Shown here piece by piece: positions 2,400 to 23,500 of a stretch of DNA of 64,000 nt (position 1 is the stretch's first letter; each line of letters opens with the position of its first letter). This stretch comes from Bolinopsis microptera (Eukaryota > Ctenophora > Tentaculata > Lobata > Bolinopsidae): NCBI RefSeq assembly GCF_026151205.1, contig NC_087077.1, positions 17,778,475 through 17,842,474 of the forward strand, in the 5' to 3' direction. A program made the translations under genes and the position numbers. Below the pieces are notes generated by a model, which saw only the letters and a program-made list of their open reading frames with translations, made no database searches and had not been told where the DNA came from.

Positions 2400-2539
2400 T
2401 AATTACTGACCCCTTCCCTCCAAGATTCAACACACTCTACAATCTCACCAACAACAGTCGGATCATGCACACTAATTACTGAGCCCTTCCCTCCAAGATT
2501 CAACACACTCTACAATCTCACCAACAACAGTCGGATCAT
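2400..2539. repeat. Tandem duplication of the last ACSS coding segment
   Basis: A 67-bp block at 2400-2466 recurs at 2473-2539 (offset 73 bp, one visible mismatch). On the minus strand the 2473-2539 copy is the final coding stretch of the acyl-CoA synthetase and includes its stop codon at 2472-2474. The second copy lies just downstream in the 3' UTR, so the reading frame is unaffected. Confidence 0.9.
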
Positions 2540-5500
2540 CAATAGTAGGGGAAACTTTGTAAGGCTTGTTGTTCACTATCGCTACCATCATATTACGTAG
2601 GATCTTCTGTGAGATTGTCTTCGGTAATCGTTCAACCTGTGGGTGCATGATAATATATTAAATTGGAGGGAGGATGAAAAAACATTTGTGTCCCTCACAT
2701 CTGATAAAAATGTTCGGGAAACCGTAAAATCATGAACAAGAGAAAAATGCATTCTGAATACCGGTCGCAGTCACTCCGAGCGATTATCTTTAAGATAGGG
2801 TTGCATCGGGTAGCTATTATTAATTCACTTATTCTTTGATGTACAAAAACGTCGTCTCACTACAACGGGGCAAGATAATTTACCTGCAATAATTCCTGCA
2901 GACCAGTATGCGGGCCGATGTGATCCCTGACAAGTTTTATTACCTCCTTTGTTATCTCTGAAGTAAGCTCTGAACCTGACATGAGACGGTGTCAGCTGAA
3001 TTGAAATGTTGTACAAAGAAACTTGTAATAAATGCTACTGAAATTACAAGGTTGAAGGACATGAACCAGCTAAAAAGAGCATTGACCCAGTAACAGAGAT
3101 TGTGAAATTTTGAAAATCAGATTAAATAATAAGTTTTTCTCTACTTCATACTAACCAGGTGTCATGACAACAAAACCAAGAGGCCTCTCCCCCATAAGGG
3201 GGTCGTCTTGTCCGACCACCGCACATTCTGATATCAGCTCGTGGTGCGCAATTGCCTGGGGGAGGTAGAGTTAGTTGTGTCAGATAGCATATACCTTGAT
3301 ATCAAGGATTTGAGCTCTATGTTAGATTAGTTAGATTTACCAAAAGGTATCTTTGAACAGTGTCAATTTCAGTGTAGTGTCAGAGACCCTGTTTTAGAGA
3401 AGTTGACCGCCAGTATGATGATATTCACAGCTAGCAGAATCTTGGATATCTTAATCCTCTACTACCACAACTGGTCAAACAGACTAAGAGAGAACTACTA
3501 CAAACTGGAAAATGAGTTTAAAACTGCTGTGCCAATGAACCATTTTGAGAGAGGTATGGCTACTGTTCAACACAAGATCCGCCAACAGAAACTGGAATGT
3601 GAGAAAACACACGATTCTAAGTTAAATAGAGACAAAGTGAATGGAACAGAGGTATACATCAAAAACAGCTATACTTCATTACCAGAACAACCAGAAGTAC
3701 CCAGGATATCTCTAACCAAAACAAGAACTCGTAGGCGCAAGGAGAAAAAATCAAAAGTCACTAAACCTAGAAAAAGGAAATCTGTCCATAAACACAGGAG
3801 GGATGGGATAAAATCAAGACCACTTAACAGAAACAATGTCAGCCAAGCTGCATTAGACAAAACTGTCATTAATCTCTCGTCCAAAACAGTTACAAATGCT
3901 CATAAGTTTGTCTTCCACCTTGGAGAATCATTTGCAGTTACTCCTTCTAAAACGAACAGAGATAAACTGGTAGAAGATGTAAACTCCTGGGCAAACTCAC
4001 TTAGAATGAGTTTCGTCCTCAGTAGAGTTGTAATCCCCACCCAAAATGTAGAAGAACATGAGAAAACCCTTGACCAGAAGGTAAAGCAAATGGAGAAAGT
4101 TCTAGGAATAAAAACCTCAAAGAAGAAGAATTTTAATTTAACAGTGGTAATCATGCATTAGAACTGTTTATCAGCAATGTCAAGAAACAGATATCTAACC
4201 ACCCTAGAAAACCAAAGCCAGCTCCTAGGAATGTAGACAAGGAGACTACAAAAGCAGTTCCCAAGAGCTCAAAAGCTGGGATGATGCTGTAATTCGATTA
4301 TTTGATAAAGGGACTGGGTTCTTTGTGTTAGACAAATCAGACTACATCAATATAGTAGATCCTGCTCTAAAAGATCAGAGCACTTTCAAACAAGTATCGG
4401 ATCAACAACAACAGATCCACACAACCATCATCACCATTAAAGAGTGGGTTCGGAAATACTCAGCAGATGCTGACTGCCCTGGCATGACCCTAAACTTTAT
4501 GGAATGGGTAACACCTAGTGAAGAGGAAAATGAACCTGGAGTAAACTACATGAACCTGAAAGCTCACAAACCAGAGAAAAACTACCCTGGGAGACTTATC
4601 AGCACTGGATGTAACTCTTACATCAAGAACCTCTCAATATTCACAGCAGAAGAACTAAAGAAGGTAACCCTGCCCCACTGCCTCATGGATTCTAATGATC
4701 TACTTATGAAGATGAAAGAACTCAATGAGTCAAGTAGATTGACTGGGAAGACCATCTACCACGTTACATTTGATATTGTAAACATGTTCCCCAGCATTTC
4801 AAAGGAGATTGGACTACCAGCTTGTAGAACCTTACTAGACCAAAGAAGTACTAAACTTTTCTCCACAGACTGCATTATGGAAGCTTTGGAGATAACCCTG
4901 GATAACAACATCACTGTTTTCAATGGCAACATGTATGTACAGACAGTGGAACTGCGATGGGTCCAAATAATGCTTGCCAGTATGCAGACTCAGCTCTCAG
5001 CCCCTTGGACAGTAAGATCGTGGAGTGCCAAGAAATCACAACCCCCGAGTTCTATGGCAGATACCGTGACGACATATACATCACTTGGACTGAGTCACTG
5101 GAGAAGCTAGACCAGTTCCTACTTTGGCTCAACCAATACCATCCAAACCTCAAGTTTACAATGTCGACACCTTCTACAGAGGGGACTGAATTTCTAGACC
5201 TGTTTATTTACTCGAAAAATTGCAAGCTAGAAACTAGGACGTACTGCAAACCTAGTGATGCCCATAGCTATTTACTCCCACAATCCTGCCACCCTACACA
5301 CACAGCAGAGAATATTCCATATGGAGTAGCACATCGAGTGTTCAAAAACTGTTCAGAGGAAGAAGAGTATTTGAAATGTAAAATTGAATTCAGTGAATAT
5401 CTAGAAGATCTAATAATAAAGATCTTATCCATAAATCCTTTGAGAAAGTTGAGTTACTTAAACGGGATGATCTGATTTCAAAAACCTTACAAGCTCTAAT

Positions 5501-8500
5501 AGTAAGAATAGTGAAGGATGTTTTCCTTTAGTTTGTGATTTTGACCCTAACTTACCTCCAATTGGTAAAATAGTTAACAAGAATAAATTTATCCTTGGCC
5601 TAGACCCCCTTTTAAAGTCTGTGATCCAGCCTAGTAAAGTACTTGTTTCATATCGTGGTAATAAAACTATCAAAGAAACTTTAGTTCCGAGTAAACTTTC
5701 AGAAGATCGTAAGTATCATGAAGATAGTAATGTTATGGCTTTAAACTCTAACACTGAAAATGTGGCTCTGCCTACTAGTATAGAAGAGGGGGGATGTTAT
5801 CATTGTAACTCCAGATGTAAAGCCTGTAGAATGTATATTTGTGAATCAAAAACAGCTCAGAGCTACCACTCGGGGTACACTGTTAACATCATTGGACAAC
5901 TAGACTGCAACACAGTAGGGGTGTGCTATCTAGTAAGGGATTAAGTCTGCAGACGTGCTTCAGTAGGAAGCACAGTTAACAATTTTAAGACCAGATGGCA
6001 GAACCACAAATCACATATTAGGAAAGCGGTTAGGAGTTGTGAAATTTCTTGTCATTTTAACGATAACCAGTTTCATAATCTTACCAAAGAGCCCTTAAAA
6101 ACGTTTGATAATGAGTTATCCGGTCAGATAGAGGTTATTATTTTTGAAAAGCTAGATTTTATAAAATGTTTAACCTTAGAAGATAGAAGTAGGGTTGCTA
6201 AAGAAAGAGAATCATTTTGGCAAAACCAGCTTATGACCCTCAGTGATTTTGGAGGACTTAATAAACGTAGTGCTCTTAATGAAATAAAAAATTGACCTTT
6301 ATATGATATGTTTTAATATTTAATCTTTCCACAGACACTTGCATTTTGTTGTTTACTTTCACCTCTGCATCTTTTATTTATATCTTATGATTGAATGAGA
6401 CTTACCCACAAATTTCCCATCTCAGTATTGATCTATTTTTGTCATGTTTTTAATTTACTTCATAGAACAGTTATTTTAATAAACTTGCTTTCAGAATTTC
6501 GTGTTTTACTGTTTCACTGAATGTCTCAAATATATACAGGGTGGGCCAAAAGTCAGTACCCATACGTTAGCCTTTATAGCTCAGTCACTGAGTGCCCAAT
6601 TTAAATACTTCTTTCTGGTATGACTTAGTAGGGTTAGTACCACCACTGGTTCGAGGAATTTGTCAACTCGAAAAATATTCGCGTTCATTTTTTTCAAACG
6701 GAGGTTCATTTTCACATTTATTTGATAGTTTAGATAGTCGGATCAAGCTAAATGTTATTGAATTGTGTTTGGCCATTCGAATTACGTTTGTCCTGAAAGA
6801 ATTAGAACTGTAGCTTCTCAGATGACCGAGATATTAAGCATAACGAGTTTATTCATTACGTGTGATCAGGTGATTGGTTTACCTAATCACGTGATAAGGT
6901 CCCCCGTTAACTACCCCGTTAAACATTATGGGAATTGTTAAGGGTGCCCAATTAAGGTGTCGTGTCACACAATCACCCAGTCAATTTTGTTAACGAGATA
7001 CAGAAAATGCTTGATAACTTCGTCATTTCTAATCCGTTTTGCCTCATATTTTCAGATCATATATGCAACATTTGATAATCTACCGTCTCTGAAAAAATTA
7101 GGCGTTCAGCATGTTCAGAGAAAACAATATAGGTGTTTTAATATTGAATGGGCGTGGTCTAAAATATTCGAATTTTCAAATTTTGACGACGGAATCCTCG
7201 AACCAGTAAATACAGTATGCCATCTGCAAAGCAACAGCTCTCAAATATAAAACACGGCGGAGCTATTAAGGCCAACGTATGGGTACTGACTTTTGGCCCA
7301 CCCTGTATATATATCAATGGGAACAATGGGATCAATGGTAAACGTGTGAGCTCATATTAACGTGGAAGTAAATAGCACCTCTTCAACAGCTCCCGTTGAT
7401 AACCTGACTGCTCCAACATTGATAATATCATCAGTGCGAGCCATGACGAACACGTTGCCCTCACTGTCCCTGTATCCCGCGTCAAATGTGTTGTAGTAGC
7501 CCTGTAAATTTCACTCTCAGGTATTGTCAACAAATTCAGATGTCATATAAAACAGATATTACTATATTTTGCTTTATATACAAGACCAAATGTGAAGAAA
7601 TATGATCAGAGCCCAAAGAAGGCACAGATAAACTTTTCAAACGAACCGGAAAGTCGGTAAAGTACTTCTCAGCATAAGCAGAGTCGTTCTGAAAGAGGGT
7701 AGGGAAGAAGCCCGGTCTGAGGGGAAGCCTGGAGGAATTTATGTAGTGAGAATAGGATGACAGATCAAACAGCAATTCCAATCAATAAGGTGCAATTAGC
7801 AACTCAATTAAAGTATGGTTATTTTTCCACTATTTTAAATATAACTAACTTGGCGACTATTTGTCCAAACTCCCCATCAGGGAGCACGTTTCCCTGATCA
7901 TCTACAATAAGAATGTTGTTTCCAACTGAGGATTTACCAGCGGACCCGTTACAGTCCACCTTCTCTCCCAGCGCGACAGGTGGCATTAGAATAGGGGTAC
8001 CGGACTCTGCGGGGGACATTTGTGTAAATACTTGTTTAAAGAGGGACAGTTGGTAGTACATTAATTACATTAATTAGTACATTAATTACATTAATTACAA
8101 TCGGTGCACAGCGTACGTGGGATGTTTGGCATTTGTATAATGTAGAAATACTTTGAAGCCTCTTTCATTCAGCCATTACACATTTGAACGATAAATCGAG
8201 GTGATAAAAAGTTTGGTTTTATTAGAATTTTATTTGTGTTTTACTGTAAAACGCAAACTTTATTACAGAGAATAAGATATTTACTTTATGTTACTTTTAG
8301 CTTTTTCAGATACATCTTTTATTTACTCAAATCCTTGCTTTGTTGTGGAGGAAAACTTTGATCATTATCAGGCCGAGTAAGGCAATAAAGTAACAACAAA
8401 TAATTTATGGTAGTTGATTTCGATTGTATACTAATAAAAGATGATAAATCCCAAAGATTCAGATCTAACAAAGTCATTTGTCACGGCTGATGTGGGCCAG

Positions 8501-11500
8501 TTGAATTTTCTGGGAGCAACCAAGCAGACCCGATCTGCTTCTCAGATATTTCCTAAAAGGTAATACAATGTATTCCGTTACCCCCGGAAATTTTCAGAGC
8601 AGTTTTCACGCTCAAAACGTCACTAAGATGTTCACTAGGAGACGAAGAGTCCGGTCTAAATTTCATTATAGCCCGATATAATTGTAAAACTCGGCTAAAT
8701 TACAAGCGGCTATGGGACTAGGCCCCCTGCCAAGCACTCGAATTATCCGTCACGTGACTGTGATCGGACGACTCGATTGGTGGACCCAGAAAAATACCGG
8801 TTTATAAGTAGGGGAGGAGTTTTACCAATCACTGCGGGGGGTAAAAATGGAGCTGCTGACAGATGGTATTTGATAATTGAAAAGACTTTTCACAGCGTGA
8901 TCGATCACTCCGGCAGGACGATTGACACTTTGACACCTTTCTAATCAATTCCATCAGATCGGGGGAGGGCCTCTGCTTTTCATGAAAATCAGATGATGAT
9001 TTGCAATAACCGCCACCACCTTGCGTAATTAGTCTCGGGTCTCCTCTTCTAAGGGAAATTTGTGAACACGTTTGACGTTTAGACCTCATTTCGCGTTGCC
9101 AGCAGTCGTCAACGACGGATATATTATCGTGCTGTGCTTCTAAACAGTTTCCGCTGTGTGCTGCAAGATGTCTCATTCAAATCGTGAGGGAGAAATTAAA
9201 GAGGTGGGGAAGAATGTTGATCATCCCTTCAGCATAAACTCTCTTCTCGTCAATGATAAAGGTTTGTGCGTGTATTTAGTGGTTGTGTGATATATTTCAT
9301 ACTTGGCAACTATTGTTTGTCGTTTGTCCATTTGGCTCTCTTTGCACAATTAAGGCAACTGGATCTTGTCCACAATAGAACCCTAATGATAGTCGGCATT
9401 CATTTATGAATGCCTATCAGTTTAAATCGCTCTCCATCATTGATATTTATTCTACGCCATCCAAATTTGATGTTATTTTCTCTCAGTACGAAATTTCTTA
9501 GATAAAAACAGCTCATTCTGTCGATCATGATAATGTACCCGAACAATTGTGATGAAGGAGGCCGGCCATGCAAGCCGGATCGTTCGATCATTAATCGAAG
9601 TGGAGTAATAGTTCGTTCGCGCGCGCGTAATAAATGTAGGTGACGCGTTAAGCACAACATGAAGTATTTATCGCGGGTTACATAGCTATGTCCGAGTAGA
9701 CCTTTTAGAAGAAATGTCACGATTATTGTGATATGAAGTTTGCCACAGAGAATTTGAGATGCAAAATTAAACCCTTTTTTATTCAGTATTTATAGTGTCA
9801 CAACTAACTTTTGTACAAGTTTAAATCTCGTGTTTTTCAATCGATAATTTCCTGATTATAATAACAACCGGTTAAATACCTTGAAATCAAGATCCGTGAA
9901 ATGAACATTGTTTGTAATTTCGTAGAATCAGTTACAAGTGTCCTACTCATATACAGAAATGATATTTTATGTGTGCTACCATCGCCGAAAATAAACTATG
10001 TGTGCCATAAAGTATCTTATAATATCTCTTACGATTTTGTAAATACACATCATTACTTTTTAGCTGGCGTTGCCTTTGGCTTTTCACCAGAAGATGAAAT
10101 TTAAACCCTAATGCTGTTTCAAATTGATAACATTTCACATTAATATGCTCACGTATTGCAGCTGGTAAATACATAAATCAGACTGTTTCGTCGGAAGAAG
10201 AGTGCAGTAAGCAGACCACATCAGCCGCTGTGAGTAACTGGCTCGATCAATAAAAACATGACGTGGACAAATTTTAAACATTTGCCTAAGCGGCATACAA
10301 ATAAAGCGTTATTATTATAAAGGGTCTCAATAAGAGGTCTCGACTGGGGGGGGGGGGGGGGGCCAATGGCATAAATGGAGAAAATGGAGAATTACTCATG
10401 GGTTTTTCCATTTTCTCCATAGAAATAGTCTCCATTTTATGCCATTTTATGCCATTTTATGCCATGGAAAACCTGAAAAATTTAGAATTTCGAGAAAAAT
10501 TATTTTAAAAAAAGATATTTTCGGCCAATAATGAACAGAGTATCATGAAACATGGAGAAAAGTGGTTTTCAGAAAAACTTTGAAAAATGTTGACTTAGAA
10601 AATGTTCGATCCGAGTCATTTACGAAACGTACCTCCCGTATCGAGAGCTCCCGATTCCGAGCTCGTGTTGCAAAGGGGAGGCCTGCCTTCCGAGATCGCA
10701 TTACCTCGAGTCCAAAATTGTGTATCGAGGCCAGGGGAAGGTGTGGACTTCGAAAAACCGAAAAAATATTTTCGGCCGATAATGAACAGAGTATCATGAA
10801 ACATGGAGAAAAGTGGTTTTCAGAAAAACTTTGAAAAATGTTGACTCAGAAAATGTTCGGTCCGAGTCATTTTCGATACGTACCTCCCGTATCGAGAGCT
10901 CCCGATTCCGAGCTCGTGTTGCAAAGGGGAGGCCTGCCTTCCGAGATCACATTACTTCGAGTCCAAAATTGTGTATCGAGGGGAAGGTGTGGACTTCGAA
11001 AAACCGAAAAAATATGTTTGGCCAATAATGAACAGAGTATCATGAAACATGGAGAAAAGTGGTTTTCAGAAAAACTTTGAAAAATGTTGACTCAGAAAAT
11101 GTTCGGTCCGAGTCATTTTCGATACGTACCTCCCGTATCGAGAGCTCCCGATTCCGAGCTCGTGTTGCAAAGGGGAGGCCTGCCTTCCGAGATCGCATTA
11201 CTTCTAGTCCAAAATTGTGTATCGAGGGGAAGGTGTGGACTTCGAAAAACCGAAAAAATATTTTCGGCAAATAATGAACAGAGTAGCATGAAACGTGGAG
11301 AAAAGCGGTTTTCAGAAAAAATTTGAAAAATTTTGACCGAAAAAATATTTTCGGCTTAAAATGAACAAGGTAGCATGAAACGTGGAGAAAAGTGTTTTTC
11401 AGAAAAACTTTGAAAAATTTTGACTTAGAAAATTACCCCTCGCTCGGTACACAATTTTGGACTCGAGGTTTCCCCCTGGTAATGCGATCTCGGAAGGCAG

Positions 11501-14500
11501 GCCTCCCCTTTGCAACACGAGCTCGGAATCGGGAGCTCTCGATACGAGAGGTACGTATCGAGAATGACTCGGGCCGAAAATTTTCTAAGTCAAAATTTTT
11601 CAAAGTTTTTCTAAAAACCACTTTTCTCCACGTTTCATGCTACCCTCTTCATTATAAGCCGAAAATATTTTTTTGGTTTTTCGGTTTATCGAAGTCTGCA
11701 CCTACCCCTCGATACACAAATTTGGACTCGAGGCTTCCCCCTGGTAATGCGATCTCGGAAGGCAGGGCTCCCCTTTGCAGTGCGAGCTTGTTTCGACTGT
11801 CGAGGATGTAGGTCTCACTTCTCAGTGCCTATTACTCTCCCCTATTACTCACTCCTGCTGTAGCCTGTAGAAATAACTTTACACTAGGCTTGAGTAATTA
11901 TGAGTTTGCCTGAAGTGTGCCTCTACTAACCTAGTATAAGCATCTAGTAGCCTACTATGAGCTTTCATAAGCTTGTTACGCCCCTAGTAAGCGTAAATAA
12001 ACATGTAAGGATGTCCAATTTAGGTGTTAAATGGTGTTAAAGATGAAATTTCGAAGACAAAATTCATGGCATAAAATGGAGAAAATGGAGAATTACTCAT
12101 GGGTTTTTCCATTTTCTCCATAGAAAAAGTCTCCATTTTATGCCATTTTATGCCATTTTATGCCATTGGCCCCCCCCCCCTCTCGACTGCCTAGGCGTCA
12201 AACCTTGGCAGTCGGTAGTTTTCCTCTGGCCCGGGGTTATTATTATTATTATTATATACAGCAGTTGTTTTTTATCAAACTTATGTTTGAAGAAACACCA
12301 ATCTAACATTGTGATATCCACAGTACACGAATATGTACAAGATGAAGATGCAGACACGGCCAATCAATCTAATCAGTCAGCTAAGTACGCAACTTATTTA
12401 CATTTCAGGAATCAAATTTCATTTAGTTCAGGATTCAGATTTCAATTTATAAAATCTTATTAATTATTTGTTGTATCAAATATCTACTATCTAGTACTGT
12501 TGGGTCTTTTGAAACGCTGAGATACCAATTACGAATCCAGTCGCATTAAATAACAAATCAGTCAAATGTACGTGAGTCACATGATAAAACATTTTATTCC
12601 AGCCACTTTTCGCCATGTTTTTTAATTTTATACTTTTCAAACTTTACAGAGTACAGAAATTATAACATATTATCTCTTCTATAATTCAGAAAATTCTTTC
12701 TGTTGTATGTGCGACCGCCCACGTGCAAATCAGACGAGAAATAGGAAGTTGCGTAGTTACCATGGTAACGAGGATTGTTACACGCACGTGCACGTGCAAT
12801 GATTGTTTTAACGTCATTTCGATCGGTTTTGTTGATATTACGCTGTGTTTAGTACGAGCAACATTTTAATCGGCTGTATCTTCAGTTGTGTACTTGTGTA
12901 GGATATTATTGACACGATTTAAACTTACTAACAAAAATACTATTAGAGTATTAGTTTCCTCCCTTACCACGGGTTTTCTAGTCTCTACTATAATTCAAAG
13001 AATTATTTATGTAGAATGTATATGTATGTACGACCGCCCACGTGCAAAACAAACGAAAAATATGAACTTGCGTAGTAACCATGGTAACGAGGGTTGTTAC
13101 ACGCACGTGCACGTGCAAAGATTGTTAAAACGGCATTTTTTATCGGTTTTGTTGATATTACGTTGTGTTTAGTGCGAGCAACATTTTAATCGGCTGTATC
13201 TTCGGTTTGTTTAGGATATTTTTTGACGCGATTTAAACTTATTAACAAAAAATACTATTAGCTTCCAACCTGTGACCACGGGTTTTCTAGTCTCTATTAT
13301 AATTCAAAGAATTATTTTTGTTGTATGTATGTACGACCGCCCACGTGCAAATCAGACGAGAAATAGGAATTTAGGTAACAACTAAAAGGTTCCATAGCAA
13401 CGGTGTTTTAATGCACACATGCACGTGCAAAGATTGTTTTAACATCATTTTGATCGGTTTTGTGGTAATTACGTTGTGTTTAAAGTGTTTTCTATTTAAA
13501 TCGGCTGTATCTTCGGTTGAGATGGATATTTTTTGATGCGATTAAAACTTTCTTTCAAAGAATACTACTAGCTTCGTCCCTGTTACCACGGGCTTTCTAG
13601 TCTCTACTATAATTCAAAGAATTATTTTTGTTGTCTGTCTGTACGACCGCCCACGTGCAAATTAGATGAAAAATAGGAATTTAGGTAACAACCAAAAGGT
13701 TCTATAGCAACGGTGTTTTAATGCACACATGCTGGTGCAAAGATTGTTTTAACGTCATTTTGATCGGTTTTGTGATAATTACGTTGTGTTTAAAGTGTTT
13801 TATATTTAAATCGGCTGTATCTTTGGTTGGGATGGATATTTTTTGATGCGATTAAAACGTTCTTTCAAAGAATACTACTAGCTTCGTCCCTGTTACCACG
13901 GGCTTTCTAGTTATCATATAATTCAGAGAATTATTTTTGTTTGTACGACCGCCCACGTGCAAATAGATGAGAAATATGTAGTTGCAAAGTAACCATGGTT
14001 ACGAGGGTTGTTACACGCACACGCACGTGCAAGGATTTGAGAGGGGCATTTTTATCGGTTTTGTTGATATTACGTTGTGTTTAGTGCGAGCAACATTTTA
14101 ATCGGCTGTATCTTCGGTTTGTTTAGGATATTTTTTGACGCGATTTAAACTTATTAACAAAAAATACTATTAGCTTCCAACCTGTGACCACGGGTTTTCT
14201 AGTCTCTATTATAATTCAAAGAATTATTTTTGTTGTATGTATGTACGACCGCCCACGTGCAAATCAGACGAGAAATAGGAATTTAGGTAACAACTAAAAG
14301 GTTCCATAGCAACGGTGTTTTAATGCACACATGCACGTGCAAAGATTGTTTTAACATCATTTTGATCGGTTTTGTGGTAATTACGTTGTGTTTAAAGTGT
14401 TTTCTATTTAAATCGGCTGTATCTTCGGTTGAGATGGATATTTTTTGATGCGATTAAAACTTTCTTTCAAAGAATACTACTAGCTTCGTCCCTGTTACCA

Positions 14501-17500
14501 CGGGCTTTCTAGTCTCTACTATAATTCAAAGAATTATTTTTGTTGTCTGTCTGTACGACCGCCCACGTGCAAATTAGATGAAAAATAGGAATTTAGGTAA
14601 CAACCAAAAGGTTCTATAGCAACGGTGTTTTAATGCACACATGCTGGTGCAAAGATTGTTTTAACGTCATTTTGATCGGTTTTGTGATAATTACGTTGTG
14701 TTTAAAGTGTTTTATATTTAAATCGGCTGTATCTTTGGTTGGGATGGATATTTTTTGATGCGATTAAAACGTTCTTTCAAAGAATACTACTAGCTTCGTC
14801 CCTGTTACCACGGGCTTTCTAGTTATCATATAATTCAGAGAATTATTTTTGTTTGTACGACCGCCCACGTGCAAATAGATGAGAAATATGTAGTTGCAAA
14901 GTAACCATGGTTACGAGGGTTGTTACACGCACACGCACGTGCAAGGATTTGAGAGGGGCATTTTAATCGGTTTTTTGGTTATTACGTGGTGTTCAGTGCG
15001 AGCTATATTTAATTGGCTGTATCTTCGGTTGTGGTGGATATTTGTTGATGCTATAAAAACTGACTGCCAAAGAAATAGAAAACTACTAGATTCATCTCTG
15101 TTACCACGGGCTTTCTAGTAACATATAAAATAAACTCGAATAAATTATTGCCCCAGTCTGTAAAATCTGACGGGAAACCAAACCACAATTACCTGGCCCC
15201 GATATGATAACAAAAATGTGAAACAAAAGTGTGAAAAAATAAATGTGTGGCGAAGAATGTGAAACGGTTTTGTCTTAAATAATGCCTTATAAATTATTTT
15301 ATATTCATGTTTCAATCCTAAAATATGTTAATTGATCAGTAGAATCTATATAGTTTATGTTTTGTTTATTGTAAGATTGTATATCATCACCATTAGTCTG
15401 CTCACTCCTAAACTCACTTCATTTTCATGTCACATGACCATTTCCTCACAAGTTTTAGATTCACGAGACACGATATAGTTTTGGAGATTAGTTCTGTGGA
15501 TTACCATTTTAATACGTTTTTATATTTCATCTTCTTCCGCAAAACCCCAAATTTAACGTCTTTCATTTTGTAAAACCTACCACTAAGTCGAGCAACTAGG
15601 TACACTTAGTGTGTTACAGCTGCATCGTGTACATTCCAATGTACAGTTCTTGTATACAGGCTACACAACGATCACACTAAAAGACGAGCACTTCTTCAAC
15701 AGCTGATAACAGAGCTGCTAATTGCTACCAAATGTAACACGACTACACACAAAATTTAACATTCTATACTTTTATCAGGACCACTATCGCAATGGGACGG
15801 GCAGAAAACGAAAGAGTCGAGGAAAGAGAGACGGCCCCGGACAGTTTTCACTGGCTCACAGCTCCTTGCACTGGAGAGTGTGTATCAGAGTCAGAGGCTG
15901 CTGTGTAGGTGCGAGCGGGCGCGGCTTGCGGGCGCACTGGCGCTCACTCCAGCACAAGTCAAGGTAATGTTGTGTTGTTGCTGCAGTTAGTAAAATCCAT
16001 GAGCTGTTAGAGAACTTAGATAAGTGATTATATTTTTAATTGGCAATGCTGAAAATGAAGCACACAAGAGCAAAGATGTGAAAAGAATCATAGAGCGACA
16101 CTAGATCAAATAGCTAACAATACAGTATGTTATAAACTGCTTTAGAAATTCAGCAGTGATTATTCAACATAAACACATGTTTTATAATTCAGGTCTGGTT
16201 TCAAAATCGCAGGACAAAATCTCGCCGAGACATTTCGTCGCAAACCTCTGTCAAAGGAAATGGATGAGAAGATCGGAGGAGGAACTCAAAAGGAGACAGG
16301 AACCAAAATTCGTGAATACCAAAACAGCCACAAATTTGAAAATACTCGCCAGCACCACCGAGTGAAAAACAGATGGTGATCGAAACAAAATTGATGATTT
16401 TGAATGAAGAAATAATGAATTTTGACCAAAAAAACAAGTCTGATATTGTTAACTGTATTTGCAATTTGCTGTTAAAGAAATTTTTAAAGATATGATAATT
16501 AAGTCATTCTGATTAATGAGTAACCATTAACCTGTTTGCCAGTAACCAATTACCTGTTTGCCCTGGTAACTAATTACCTGTTTGCCAGTGACTAATTACC
16601 TGTTTGCCAGTAACTAATTACCTGTTTGCCAGTGACTAATTACCTGTTTGCCAGTGACCAATTACCTGTTTGCCAGTAACTAATTACCTGTTTGCCAGTG
16701 ACTAATTACCTGTTTGCCCTGGTAACCAATTACCTGTTTGCCCTGGTAACTAATTACCTGTTTGCCAGTAACCAATTACCTGTTTGCCAGTAACTAATTA
16801 CATGTTTGCCAGTAACTAATTACCTGTTTGCCAGTGACTAATTACCTGTTTGCCACTGACTAATTACCTGTTTGCCAGTGACCAATTACCTGTTTGCCCT
16901 GGTAACTAATTACCTGTTTGCCAGTGACTAATTACCTGTTTGCCAGTAACTAATTACCTGTTTGCCAGTGACTAATTACCTGTTTGCCAGTGACCAATTA
17001 CCTGTTTGCCAGTAACTAATTACCTGTTTGCCAGTGACTAATTACCTGTTTGCCCTGGTAACCAATTACCTGTTTGCCCTGGTAACTAATTACCTGTTTG
17101 CCAGTAACCAATTACCTGTTTGCCAGTAACTAATTACATGTTTGCCAGTAACTAATTACCTGTTTGCCAGTGACTAATTACCTGTTTGCCAGTGACTAAT
17201 TACCTGTTTGCCAGTGACTAATTACCTGTTTGCCAGTGACCAATTACCTGTTTGCCCTGGTAACTAATTACCTGTTTGCCAGTAACCAATTACCTGTTTG
17301 CCAGTGACTAATTACCTGTTTGCCAGTGACTAATTACCTGTTTGCCAGTAACTAATTACCTGTTTGCCAGTGACTAATTACCTGTTTGCCAGTAACTAAT
17401 TACCTGTTTGCCAGTAACCAATTACCTGTTTGCCCTGGTAACTAATTACCTGTTTGCCCTGGTAACTAATTACCTGTTTGCCCTGGTAACTAATTACCTG

Positions 17501-20500
17501 TTTGCCCTGGTAACTAATTACCTGTTTGCCAGTAACTAATTACCTGTTTGCCAGTAACCAATTACCTGTTTGCCCTGGTAACTAATTACCTGTTTGCCAG
17601 TGACTAATTACCTGTTTGCCAGTAACTAATTACCTGTTTGCCAGTAACCAATTACCTGTTTGCCCTGGTAACTAATTACCTGTTTGCCCTGGTAACTAAT
17701 TATCTGTTTGCCCTGGTAACTAATTACCTGTTTGCCCTGGTAACTAATTACCTGTTTGCCAGTAACTAATTACCTGTTTGCCAGTAACCAATTACCTGTT
17801 TGCCCTGGTAACTAATTACCTGTTTGCCAGTGACTAATTACCTGTTTGCCAGTAACCAATTACCTGTTTGCCCTGGTAACTAATTACCTGTTTGCCAGTG
17901 ACTAATTACCTGTTTGCCAGTAACTAATTACCTGTTTGCCAGTGACTAATTACCTGTTTGCCAGTGACCAATTACCTGTTTGCCAGTAACTAATTACCTG
18001 TTTGCCAGTGACTAATTACCTGTTTGCCCTGGTAACCAATTACCTGTTTGCCCTGGTAACTAATTACCTGTTTGCCAGTAACCAATTACCTGTTTGCCAG
18101 TAACTAATTACATGTTTGCCAGTAACTAATTACCTGTTTGCCAGTGACTAATTACCTGTTTGCCAGTGACTAATTACCTGTTTGCCAGTGACCAATTACC
18201 TGTTTGCCCTGGTAACTAATTACCTGTTTGCCAGTGACTAATTACCTGTTTGCCAGTAACTAATTACCTGTTTGCCAGTGACTAATTACCTGTTTGCCAG
18301 TGACCAATTACCTGTTTGCCAGTAACTAATTACCTGTTTGCCAGTGACTAATTACCTGTTTGCCCTGGTAACCAATTACCTGTTTGCCCTGGTAACTAAT
18401 TACCTGTTTGCCAGTAACCAATTACCTGTTTGCCAGTAACTAATTACATGTTTGCCAGTAACTAATTACCTGTTTGCCAGTGACTAATTACCTGTTTGCC
18501 AGTGACTAATTACCTGTTTGCCAGTGACTAATTACCTGTTTGCCAGTGACCAATTACCTGTTTGCCCTGGTAACTAATTACCTGTTTGCCAGTAACCAAT
18601 TACCTGTTTGCCAGTGACTAATTACCTGTTTGCCAGTGACTAATTACCTGTTTGCCAGTAACTAATTACCTGTTTGCCAGTGACTAATTACCTGTTTGCC
18701 AGTAACTAATTACCTGTTTGCCAGTAACCAATTACCTGTTTGCCCTGGTAACTAATTACCTGTTTGCCCTGGTAACTAATTACCTGTTTGCCCTGGTAAC
18801 TAATTACCTGTTTGCCCTGGTAACTAATTACCTGTTTGCCAGTAACTAATTACCTGTTTGCCAGTAACCAATTACCTGTTTGCCCTGGTAACTAATTACC
18901 TGTTTGCCAGTGACTAATTACCTGTTTGCCAGTAACTAATTACCTGTTTGCCCTGGTAACCAATTACCTGTTTGCCAGTAACTAATTACCTGTTTGCCAG
19001 TAACTAATTACCTGTTTGCCAGTAGTGATCTACAGGGTTGAGTTTCAGAGTGTCTCTAACCCAGAGTAACGTTCCAATATCACACCTCTCCCCCGCCAGA
19101 AACATTGTACCAAAACTGAAAAATGTGTCGAACGTTGGAAAAATAGAATAATAATAATTGTAGTAATGCGGAAGACAGTTCGTTAATTGTGAGAAACTCT
19201 CTGCGAGAAAGAATTTGTAAGTGCACAAACTACAATTCCCATGAAAATTGAAGAGACGATAAAACAACCGAATTTAAAATCCTGAAAAACATTCTTAATG
19301 ACATTTAAAATCTGCTCACTTAGGTCTAGGGTAGGCATCTCCAGCTGTTCCCTCTGGTTCCTCTCTACACAGTATCCTCATGATTGATGGAGACGCAAAC
19401 GCACTTCGCACGTCATGCTCTGATAGTATCCTGTGTATGGTGGAAGCGTCTGGCGTTCCCACTGTAGCAAGATAACGTGTGTCAATGCTACATTGTATGA
19501 TCATTGATAACGCTTTATAATCGTTTATAAATAAGTGAATCATTGGACGTTGATACTAATCCAAGACTTAATCGACAGTCGATTGCGACGCTTTCTTGAT
19601 GCTCATGAGAGTGATAAAGTTTGCTTTTATTGTATAATAATCTAAGTTAACTACTACTACACGTGTACATCTATAATCATGATAATCCCTAGTCTCACCT
19701 GGTTTTCCCTCGAATATAATAGAAGGGTTGCGGGAGAGCAGAGGAGCGTAAACGCAGTAAGAGTGGCCTACCACCCACCCATAGTCAGTAGCAGAGAACC
19801 ACACCTGTATAATTTATATATCAACTTCTGAATGTCTTATTAGTCTATAATAAACCAGGGTGTTCAAAAAATTAAAGAGAAACACTTTTTTGATATGACA
19901 ACTTTTGAAATTTATTATTTCTTGCATTGTTGTACCTCATCAGGGTTCAAATCGAATTCGTTCTTCATTGTGTAGAGTAGAACAGTTGCGTAGTCCGCCG
20001 CGTTTCTCTGCACTGCCTGGTAGTTGGTTATTGTAAAAGCATCAGTCTCCATTATTATAGATTGAGCGCTAGATAAACTCTTTATATGGTCCTCAGTTTG
20101 TTGGCTTGTAAACAGGGATTTACCACGATCAAACTGTAAAACCAAACAAACGAACCAACATCCAAATAAAACATTTTCTAAACAAAGAACAAACAGTCGG
20201 GGACACCAACTCACCTTGGGAGTGCCCGTAGTGCCGGAGGTGTAGAGCAGATAAAGGGGGTGATCAGCAGGAAGTGAGACACAGTCATGACCTGTACTGA
20301 CACTATCCAGTAACTCATCAAAATCTAGCACTGTTTTACCGTTCACAACTGCACTGGTCTGGAGATAAAATGTTATGTCACATTTTGTTTATCATGTGAC
20401 AATTTATATACTCAGATTATAATTTAATTCCACAAATAAATGTAGTTTTTATCAACAAATTCTATATCAAATCAGGCCATAGATCTCTGAGTATTATTAT

Positions 20501-23500
20501 TAATCAACTATATACAGCAAACACAAGAAAATAGGAAATAAATCATAAAATCGAGTGGCCGAGTAGTCTCGACTCACCCATAGCTTCTCCATAAACGTCT
20601 ATCATGAGCTTTGTACACACTTATATATTAGTTTTATTAAACTTAAAATATTTATCATCTCACCTCAATCGACCTGTTCTTGTAAATGGTGTACTGAGGT
20701 TTGAAAGTTGACATCTCCATTGCTTTATCGATGATTGGTTGGAACTGCACAGTTTTGCCGGGCATCACCCCATTACTTCCTGCTATTATTACGCGGGGTT
20801 TGGAGGCATCAATACGGACGGAGAGCTCTTTTGAGGCAAACCCGCCAAACACAACGTTATGTATCGCGCCGATACGTGCACACGCCAACATTGCTACCGC
20901 GCCCTGAGATAACATGCGTAGCTTAATTGTCTAGATAAAATGTAATCGAAGATTAACTATTATGTCTATTATATGCTATTTGATATTCAACACAGAACTG
21001 AACATCCGGCAACGAAAATGCCAAATGGGACACAAAAACAATAAGGAGTCATAATAAGGAGTCACAATAAGGAGTCACAATAAGGAGTCACAATAAGGAG
21101 TCACAATAAGGAGTCATAATAAGGAGTCATAATAAGGAGTCACAATAAGGAGTCACAATAAAGAGTCACAATAAGGAGGCACACCAGTGATAAACATGTT
21201 ATCTCACCTCCAGAATCATGGGCATGTAGATAAGAACTCTGTCACCAGGCTCCACACCCATCTTAACCAAGCACCGAGCTAACTTGCTCACCTGGAATTA
21301 CAGTTTCAATATCTGCCTAGTGCCTACCTATGTTCATGATTCTTATCTAACCCCATAAGTCATAACCCATTGCACGTTACATGGATTAATAATTCAATTT
21401 ATTTCAAGTTTTAACTCTGACCTTATCTTGAAGTTCGTTATAAGACATGTGGCGAATAGGTGAGTTAGTAACGGGTGAGTCCCAGATAAGAGCACTCTTC
21501 TCACCATTACCAGAGTCCACGTGCCGGTCAACACAGTTGTAGCACATGTTCATCCACCCTCCGCTAAACCTGATATTATTACAAACATGTAATGGAGCTA
21601 TTACCTGGTATTACTATCTTATATTATTAAAATGGTACGTAAACAGACAAACAGACTCATGGTAGCCGTGAGGTTGGGTCCAATGAACTGATCATGTTAT
21701 TTTCTGAGTTAATACTAGTCTAAGCTTCACACTTCCCAGAGAAATGTAATGAAATGGGATAGAAATATTTAAAACAAGTCGAACCATTTAGTAAAAGGAG
21801 GATTGGAAGTGTCCACGACTTTGTCCCACTTTTTGTCCCACACTAAATTCTCAGCATGTTTGCCCCAGAATCCAGTCGGGTTTGAGAGTGCTTCCTTTTG
21901 GTACTGGTCGTAAAGTGAACTCAAGCACCGCTGAGGACTTGAGTTAAAAGAAGGCTTTATTAATTTAATGTGATTTAGTCTGCTAGGAGACCATTTAGAT
22001 ATGTCATTTTGGTCTAAGATGGAACATTATGTAATCACATGATATGTATTGTGTTCCATGCAGACAGTTTCATATTCTCGGGATGGTTTTATGTATTCAA
22101 TTCACTTTCATATGATATTTATGATATTAATGCTTTTCATGCAAACAAGTGAAAACGAATCTTTTATGTCATGTATCCTGGGTTTGGACAGGATATGCCT
22201 GTTGATATTGAATTAGTATTTAGCAAAAATTCATGCAGTTTTAGTGTGGTCTGGAAGAATTCCCATACAACTCTCGACCAAATGAGAGCAAATATGTGCT
22301 AACCTTTCCTAGCAAGCCCGATCTTTTTCCCAAAATGTTAGATACTTGCATTTCTTATTGCACCACTCGTTTCTCACTTACTTCAACTCGTATAATCTAT
22401 TTTCTTTATCATTATAGATGGAACTTTTATTAGTTATATAGTAACTGTTTGAAAACTAAGCAAGCTAAAATGTTTTTATTTTTTGTTTCACTGATAAGGT
22501 CACTTCAAGAGATAATTGAAAATGCTGTCTAATGAAAATCCAAAAACACGGTTGTATTGATGAAAGAATTAATACATTTAAATTCAAATTTTATGCGCCA
22601 AAACCAACACAAGATGTCGATATTAATAATAATCAGAATGTTTCATTTCAAATGTCCCTTAAAACATCAAAAACACGTACTTAGATTTTAGCAAGAAGTA
22701 ACCAATTAATCAATAGTAAACAAAAAGTACAGAAAATAGTAAATTTTCAAATATGTGGACACAAATTATGACGTAATATTGAATTAAAATATTGCTGAAT
22801 TTGTTGAATAGGCCCATTCCTTATTATATTTAAATTCTAAGTGGTAGAAAAGTATGTTGGGGTCCTCTCGCACTGCAGAAAGTTTAGGGATCGGTCACAT
22901 ATTACATAAGAAAGCCAAGGGTGAGGGGGTTTGAAAAGCTTACGCTAATGTAATTTCTAAACAGTAGCCATGGGGGGAGGCTACAATGGTCCAAATCTGG
23001 CTAACTTAATATGTGAACGACCTTTTAGCAAACAAATTAAAAAATTTGAGTCGCACAAAAACTGGTTAAAATATAATTTTATGGAAACAGTGTTAAACAC
23101 CCAAAAATCAAACATAATTTACAATTTTATAATTATTCCTTAGTTTTTAAATTTTTATTGTTGATTTATACACGAAAGTCGCAATGAGAGTCTCCTTATA
23201 AATTTGAAACCAAAATGTAAATACATATTGAGTTGATAGATAAACTTGGAAAGTAAAGGAACTCATATGAAGTTGATATATTATACAAGTAGTGCATAGC
23301 AAGTAGTGTATAGCAAGTAGTGTGTTGTTGTTGTGTGTAATAGTGACATTTGCACGCTATTGTTATGATAAGGAAGTAGGTCTGATTGAGAATTAGTTTA
23401 GACCTTCTGTTGAATCACATGATTTTCTTAAACCTATTTAATACGCTTGCTTTGCACATCAGTAATTATTTGTTAACACAAATTAGTTAGTTAAATGTTT

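Follow-up and report, generated by a model that had tools for sequence, protein, structure and literature searches.

In the ctenophore Bolinopsis microptera, one exon of an acyl-CoA synthetase gene is followed by a tandem array of 111 units, in which the last bases of the exon and its splice donor are repeated together inside the next intron. The gene, here called ACSS3-like, lies in a window of 64,000 nucleotides, which is the whole stretch of DNA analysed (NCBI RefSeq assembly GCF_026151205.1, contig NC_087077.1, C6:17778475-17842474). In all likelihood the array is a "mirage": it arose by tandem duplication across the exon-intron junction, was enlarged, is tolerated as the donor nearest the exon is the one used, and represents one case of a process that recurs in this genome. 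The array is real but not unprecedented, since a named class of such structures exists. Its interest lies less in a possible role as a switch for a single gene than in its belonging to what appears to be a large class.

The ACSS3-like gene is of acyl-CoA synthetase type, with GT..AG introns at the boundaries read. Joined end to end, its exons match the AMP-binding family (7.6e-40); among PDB structures they match a bacterial AMP-dependent synthetase (5gxd, 1.9e-109) and yeast acetyl-CoA synthetase. We take the two end exons to be of N-terminal and C-terminal type. The exon beside the array ends in TAC TGG CAA ACA G/GT, where the slash marks the splice junction (TACTGGCAAACAG/GTAATTAGT at 19012/19011). 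The next exon begins at 8006 with CCCGCAG/AG TCC GGT, which completes the split Glu codon and continues with SGT. Once joined, WQT-E-SGT aligns with WQTETG in bacterial 5gxd and with YWQTESG in yeast 1ry2, and YWQT/E is conserved as far as yeast and bacteria. Because the conserved YWQT and the exon at 8006 restore the Glu-SGT frame, protein conservation fixes the position of this donor, which is probably the productive one.

The genome searched comprises 264,652,675 bases in 232 contigs. A 450-base query over both exons was found at one place, so the two-exon stretch next to the array is single copy. A paralogue on contig C7 (L019) reads WWQTETG straight through the junction position; it provides no bare junction for comparison because the intron is absent there.

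Tandem Repeats Finder (TRF) places the array at 16519-19024, with a period of 22 and 111.2 copies. Split into units, it yields 80 of 22 bp, 30 lengthened to 24 bp by a 2-bp insert, and a single degenerate unit at its end. The units hold sequence from both sides of the adjoining junction (13 exon and 9 intron bases) and repeat its AG/GT signal. An intact CAG/GTAATT is present in 105 of the 110 full units, while four carry CATGTAATT and one CAGATAATT. On the exon side all 13 nucleotides are identical to the next copy, with no mismatch. An earlier note on this DNA had described the unit as the last 13 coding bases (YWQT) plus the 5' splice site of this exon, and had counted more than 100 decoy donors in the intron; both statements hold, as the real donor is followed by 104 AGGTAAT cores.

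The exon's own copy and the unit that adjoins it are of one type, and the distal end of the array is degenerate. Variants are few, are shared between units, and are found both inside and outside the donor core. When the array is shifted against itself by 1,310 bp, 1146 of 1196 positions match (95.8%), and this block repeat suggests a past expansion. Together with the few shared variants, it indicates that the array grew stepwise, by block duplication among other steps.

The match between unit and junction is not due to chance, and the exact unit is confined to this locus. All 28 genome copies of the 22-base sequence (a complete list) lie inside the array, and a dispersed satellite is thereby ruled out for the exact unit; the objection that the same satellite might sit at many unrelated loci, raised in the earlier note itself, does not apply to it. 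An 18-base core allowing two mismatches or fewer gave 136 genome matches against 3 for the reversed pattern. Among the matches listed, 59 are exact and all of these are in the array, while those elsewhere have one or two mismatches. The array as ancestor of the exon can be rejected as well, since the exon encodes conserved residues. With a conserved coding exon and exact units at this locus only, derivation of the array from a functional exon-intron junction, as had been proposed, is well founded.

The first in-frame stop, a TAG, starts 5 nucleotides past the first donor, and the second donor lies at +22. Here the exon's own donor alone avoids this in-frame TAG at +5. Genes for U1 carry the canonical 5' end ATACTTACCTG in all six copies fetched, out of 10 genome matches. 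Because this end is standard and can pair with CAGGTAA, each intact unit is a plausible donor. Because so many cores are intact, the decoys show no sign of removal by selection.

The hypothesis of a gene-specific array raised the question of whether donors are tandemly repeated elsewhere. Three CAGGTAA motifs with gaps of 5-35 bases gave 10,982 matches, compared to 209 for the reversed motif, partly through a dispersed (CCAGGTAA)n repeat. Triples of CAGGTAAK matched 1,729 times against 48 reversed, whereas single CAGGTAAK sites number 21,212 against 11,897. The excess for AGGTGAG is weaker (3,028 against 1,569, or 1.9-fold). Since match counts overstate the number of arrays, arrays were counted by eye among the matches listed on contig C1. 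Taken in listed order, these were seven for CAGGTAA (plus strand only), seven for AGGTGAG and seven for CAGGTAAK, one of them shared, giving 20 distinct arrays.

Nine of the 20 are independent sense exon-donor arrays, and their units are unrelated. The exon calls rest on open frames and splice signals, plus Pfam for five of the nine. The exon side is identical to the next copy over as few as 2 bases (L067) and as many as 40 (CDK1); in the dynein array, a later unit agrees with the exon's last 40 positions at 35 of them. Extrapolating from 5 donor arrays in 12.06 Mb and 3 in 6.66 Mb gives, with wide error, a number of the order of a hundred for each of two motif classes. The (CCAGGTAA)n repeat is dispersed genome-wide and sometimes lies within an intron close to an acceptor, in antisense orientation to the gene, as in L058; L021 holds a CAGGTAA array related to it.

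The clearest case of the recurring anatomy is CDK1. One exon (...VALKKIR) ends in AAAATCAG/GTAATAAACC, after which come 43-bp units bearing the exon's own codons. The next exon, which encodes PSTAIRE, starts after TTTCCTAG; after joining, the encoded protein matches CDK1 of known structure at 1.8e-43. The next intron read shows the mirror image at an acceptor. It ends in seven 109-bp copies of the acceptor plus about 46 nucleotides of exon start, and only the last of them continues into the rest of the exon. Elsewhere on C1 (L029-L050, about 1.100 Mb), an array at the 3' end of an intron has longer units that repeat AATTAACT, a pyrimidine tract and CAG, then GTAA; these units look like repeats of a whole acceptor.

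A motif with the GT destroyed, CAGGATAK, was meant as a negative control for location. It failed in that role, as three of the seven control arrays listed start at donors, but is still usable for motif counts. Control arrays picked without a donor motif are thus also found at donors. CAGGATAK has 700 matches and its own reversed form 125, with long arrays dominating. Among the matches listed on C1 there are 3 CAGGATAK arrays in 26.2 Mb and 7 CAGGTAAK arrays in 6.66 Mb, a 9.2-fold difference (p 0.0009) that assumes the matches listed are complete up to the last place; the 6.66-Mb stretch ends at that place, which slightly favours the effect. By match count the two motifs differ only 2.5-fold (1729 against 700), because long arrays give many matches and one C1 array fills most of the control matches listed. 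Close to a control array, at L081 375-751 (C1 about 25.8137 Mb), there is another donor-like 35-bp array, CACCAGA/GTAAGTC, next to an open frame; its exon has no family match.

Table 1. Features of the ACSS3-like locus (window positions), tandem arrays read on contig C1, and the control arrays listed
Feature	Location	Strand	Remarks
Splice-donor minisatellite, 111 units of 22/24 bp	16519-19024	-	includes the exon's own copy as first unit; 104 decoy cores intact
Founding unit TACTGGCAAACAG/GTAATTAGT	19003-19024	-	13 exon + 9 intron bases; contains putative productive donor 19012/19011
Distal degenerate array end (GGTTAATGGTTAC)	16519-16542	-	limits approximate
ACSS3-like gene	2475-22026	-	approximate extent, presumed N-terminal-type exon to presumed C-terminal-type exon
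ACSS3-like coding exon (FGTMFLAGERCDIGTLLWVRDTLKLNPVDHYWQT)	19012-19115	-	acceptor CAG/TTTTGG, donor CAG/GTAATT
Next ACSS3-like exon (ESGTPILMPPVALGEKVDCNGSAGKSSVGNNILIVDDQGNVLPDGEFGQIVAK)	7850-8006	-	3' end taken from frame
Array-containing intron, 11,005 nt	8007-19011	-	between exons 19115-19012 and 8006
Donor array, dynein heavy chain	L025, C1		AAA_7 E 9e-11 across junction
Donor array, Sushi-like	L061, C1		E 0.024, below cut-off; weaker exon call
Donor array, Hydrolase_4	L062, C1		E 0.2, no PDB match; weaker exon call
Donor array, ADP-dependent glucokinase	L064, C1		2.7e-9
Donor array, ubiquitin protease (USP)	L066, C1		2.1e-18
Donor array, no family	L067, C1		run-together peptide, too short alone; weaker exon call
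Donor array, CDK1	L068, C1		kinase 1.8e-21
Donor array, TIL domain	L069, C1		5.5e-8
Donor array, no family	L072, C1		weaker exon call
CDK1 acceptor-side array	L074 780-1500, C1 ~215.1-215.8 kb		seven 109-bp copies
Duplicated exon tail and donor	L059, C1		at either side of antisense array
Arrays that appear to abut an acceptor	L029, L063, L071, C1		L063 and L071 antisense; exons from open frames only
Arrays that appear intronic	L021, L058, C1		close upstream of acceptor
Arrays with no exon seen	L057, L060, L065, L073, C1
Array not counted as junction array	L070, C1
Intronic array	L076, C1		about 230 bp past exon
Long array	C1:761700-762300 (L077)		GAG/GTAAGT repeated on minus strand; no exon seen
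Control donor array, WD40 exon	L084		20 exon bases in unit
Control donor array, COMM-domain exon	L085		E 1.4e-4, 0.1 bit below cut-off; 6 exon bases
Control donor array, exon without family match	L080		15 exon bases, 2 mismatches
Control arrays ending close to acceptor	L082, L083		near-identical regions
Control array past stop codon	L079		roadblock-domain gene
Control array, nothing seen	L078

Tandem arrays of this kind are known from amphioxus. In the available text of two reports (PMC3087553, PMC3902484), the mirages of amphioxus, found in Adh3, globins, TnC and PGBD5, are minisatellite-like tandem duplications across an exon-intron boundary. They occur at 5' or 3' boundaries, many with AG/GT, and are homogenised internally but not at the edge. 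The Adh3 data and reverse transcription-polymerase chain reaction (RT-PCR) of globins are said there to suggest that regular splicing is unaffected (PMC3087553). This precedent, as far as the report's available text goes, therefore supports tolerance of the present array.

The match to amphioxus mirages as described in those parts of the reports is close: units span the exon-intron boundary, both 5' and 3' kinds exist, and AG/GT is repeated. The Bolinopsis arrays differ in scale, with 111 copies at the ACSS3-like exon, where the two haplotypes given for one amphioxus globin gene have 6 and 3. They also differ in being seen in many genes of one genome, in being known from DNA sequence alone, and in their host, a ctenophore instead of a cephalochordate, although host is a non-structural criterion. 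Within the literature searched, no report of mirage-type arrays in ctenophores was found, and the name "mirages" was found only for amphioxus.

A minisatellite with multiple splice donors was reportedly described by Turri in 1995 in the human gene IFI6 (6-16). It resembles the present array, on what is told of it, in lying at an exon end and offering many donors. In IFI6, however, splicing is said to make use of the donors of two repeat units further downstream, so that three mRNA species result, whereas a downstream donor here adds a stop. Because the TAG comes 5 nucleotides past the first donor, use of downstream donors for a coding product, as in IFI6, is unlikely. The gain of introns through tandemly duplicated AGGT segments is described in the accessible part of another report (PMC4974935). 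There, too, a tandem duplication across AG/GT is the starting event, but the copies here pile up inside an existing intron and no new intron is seen.

The earlier note had suggested that the array could act as a U1 sink or as a switch on splicing of the ACSS gene. Such a device would work if the 104 decoys held U1 small nuclear ribonucleoprotein (snRNP) or, on changes in U1 or splicing factors, shifted splicing to stop-containing products, and so tuned ACSS3 output. The largely intact decoy cores, their potential pairing with U1 and the TAG that use of a downstream donor would add here are all in keeping with this, but the idea is nonetheless improbable. The same anatomy with unrelated units is found at donors of unrelated genes, which weakens the notion of a U1 sink or switch; the few variants lie inside as well as outside the donor core and give no evidence of selection on it; and amphioxus mirages are reported, in the text available, without disturbance of splicing. 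It is more likely that the array is tolerated by splicing than that it is a dedicated switch. Inflation of the array's length, or even its existence, by a noisy long-read assembly is very improbable. The published assembly is described, in the portion of its report available, as built from PacBio reads with wtdbg and its annotation as drawing on RNA-seq and Iso-Seq (PMC10232365); the array, when shifted against itself by 1,310 bp, shows 95.8% identity. The ordered pattern of unit variants, the clean exon edge and the many independent loci of the same kind argue the other way. Even less credible is the capture of the exon end by a pre-existing mobile or dispersed satellite. Repeats of the (CCAGGTAA)n type do occur dispersed, in both orientations with respect to the frames beside them, but the unit has no exact copy elsewhere, its YWQT codons are constrained protein sequence, and other junction arrays carry exon sequence of their own genes.

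Chance overlap, in which a minisatellite-rich genome has some arrays on donors with no preference for junctions, is unlikely as an account of the recurrence but deserves more weight than these, and is compatible with the best explanation of this array's origin. Among eight arrays in the window (period at least 12, at least three copies), one was seen on a donor; the flanks of four others were read and two were judged from the gene model only. If donors make up about half of the motif occurrences, which is a guess, nine arrays of 20 is near uniform placement; the GT-destroyed motif is not rare by matches, and AGGTGAG exceeds its reversed control only 1.9-fold. Against it stand the excess of CAGGTAAK triples over what single sites show, the 9.2-fold difference among the matches listed on C1, and the three of seven control arrays at donors, compared to a rough guess of 2-4% by chance. 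On whether splice junctions are genuine hot spots where minisatellites arise, we lean slightly towards no. In that reading a DNA-level process linked to transcription or splicing, with R-loops or nucleosome edges at the ends of exons as examples, would repeatedly duplicate AG/GT and would have made hundreds of arrays at donors and acceptors. Such hot spots are possible but not proven, because the 2-4% chance figure is a guess from assumed intron numbers.

Several observations weigh against a tolerated mirage formed by a recurrent junction process. Two further C1 arrays outside the 20 (L076, L077) lack junction anatomy. In six of ten donor arrays, counting that in the window and the nine on C1, a stop comes before the next intact core, but the other four have no in-frame stop there. 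The statement that a downstream donor would add an in-frame TAG stands for this gene; "only the first donor is productive" is thus not a general rule. When equal donors compete, preference can go to the intron-proximal one, which would predict much missplicing, and we infer use of the first donor. The exact array length is known from one assembly.

The origin of the array as a mirage can be pictured as follows. The anatomy suggests a founding tandem duplication whose two breakpoints lay within the exon, 13 bases from the junction, and within the intron, 9 bases from it. Slippage or unequal exchange, including the duplication of a 1.3-kb block, may then have enlarged it. Through exon definition, the donor nearest the exon's own acceptor, 104 nucleotides upstream, would win, and transcripts using later donors would carry the in-frame TAG and be lost. 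The array would persist because the exon-proximal donor is used and later-donor transcripts are lost, and is presumably neutral. In many genes, a recurrent process of this type would give rise to unrelated arrays, which sit at donors and, in at least one case, at an acceptor.

The ACSS3-like gene holds further features. A homeobox gene is nested in the array-containing intron on the opposite strand (window 15760-16268, plus strand; homeodomain E 4.1e-21 from two joined exons). The roughly 250 bp between its stop codon and the array contain no AATAAA or ATTAAA, and one AATAAT at 16411. Because neither of the first two signals is present there, its transcript might run into the array in antisense direction. 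Retroelement-like frames lie within the gene at 3331-6292 (plus strand), with a weak GIY-YIG match (E 0.0038, below cut-off); presumably they are of reverse transcriptase type and Penelope-like. An 11-copy array of 13 bp at 21038-21183 starts about 20-25 nucleotides downstream of another ACSS3-like donor.

These findings suggest that duplication across splice junctions is a widespread mutational process in an animal far from amphioxus, with a bearing on intron gain and on genome annotation. Natural genes in which as many as about 100 near-identical donors come after an exon end offer a direct test of how the spliceosome chooses between them. If junctions are true hot spots, these would be convergent with amphioxus, and would continually supply decoy splice sites and new introns.

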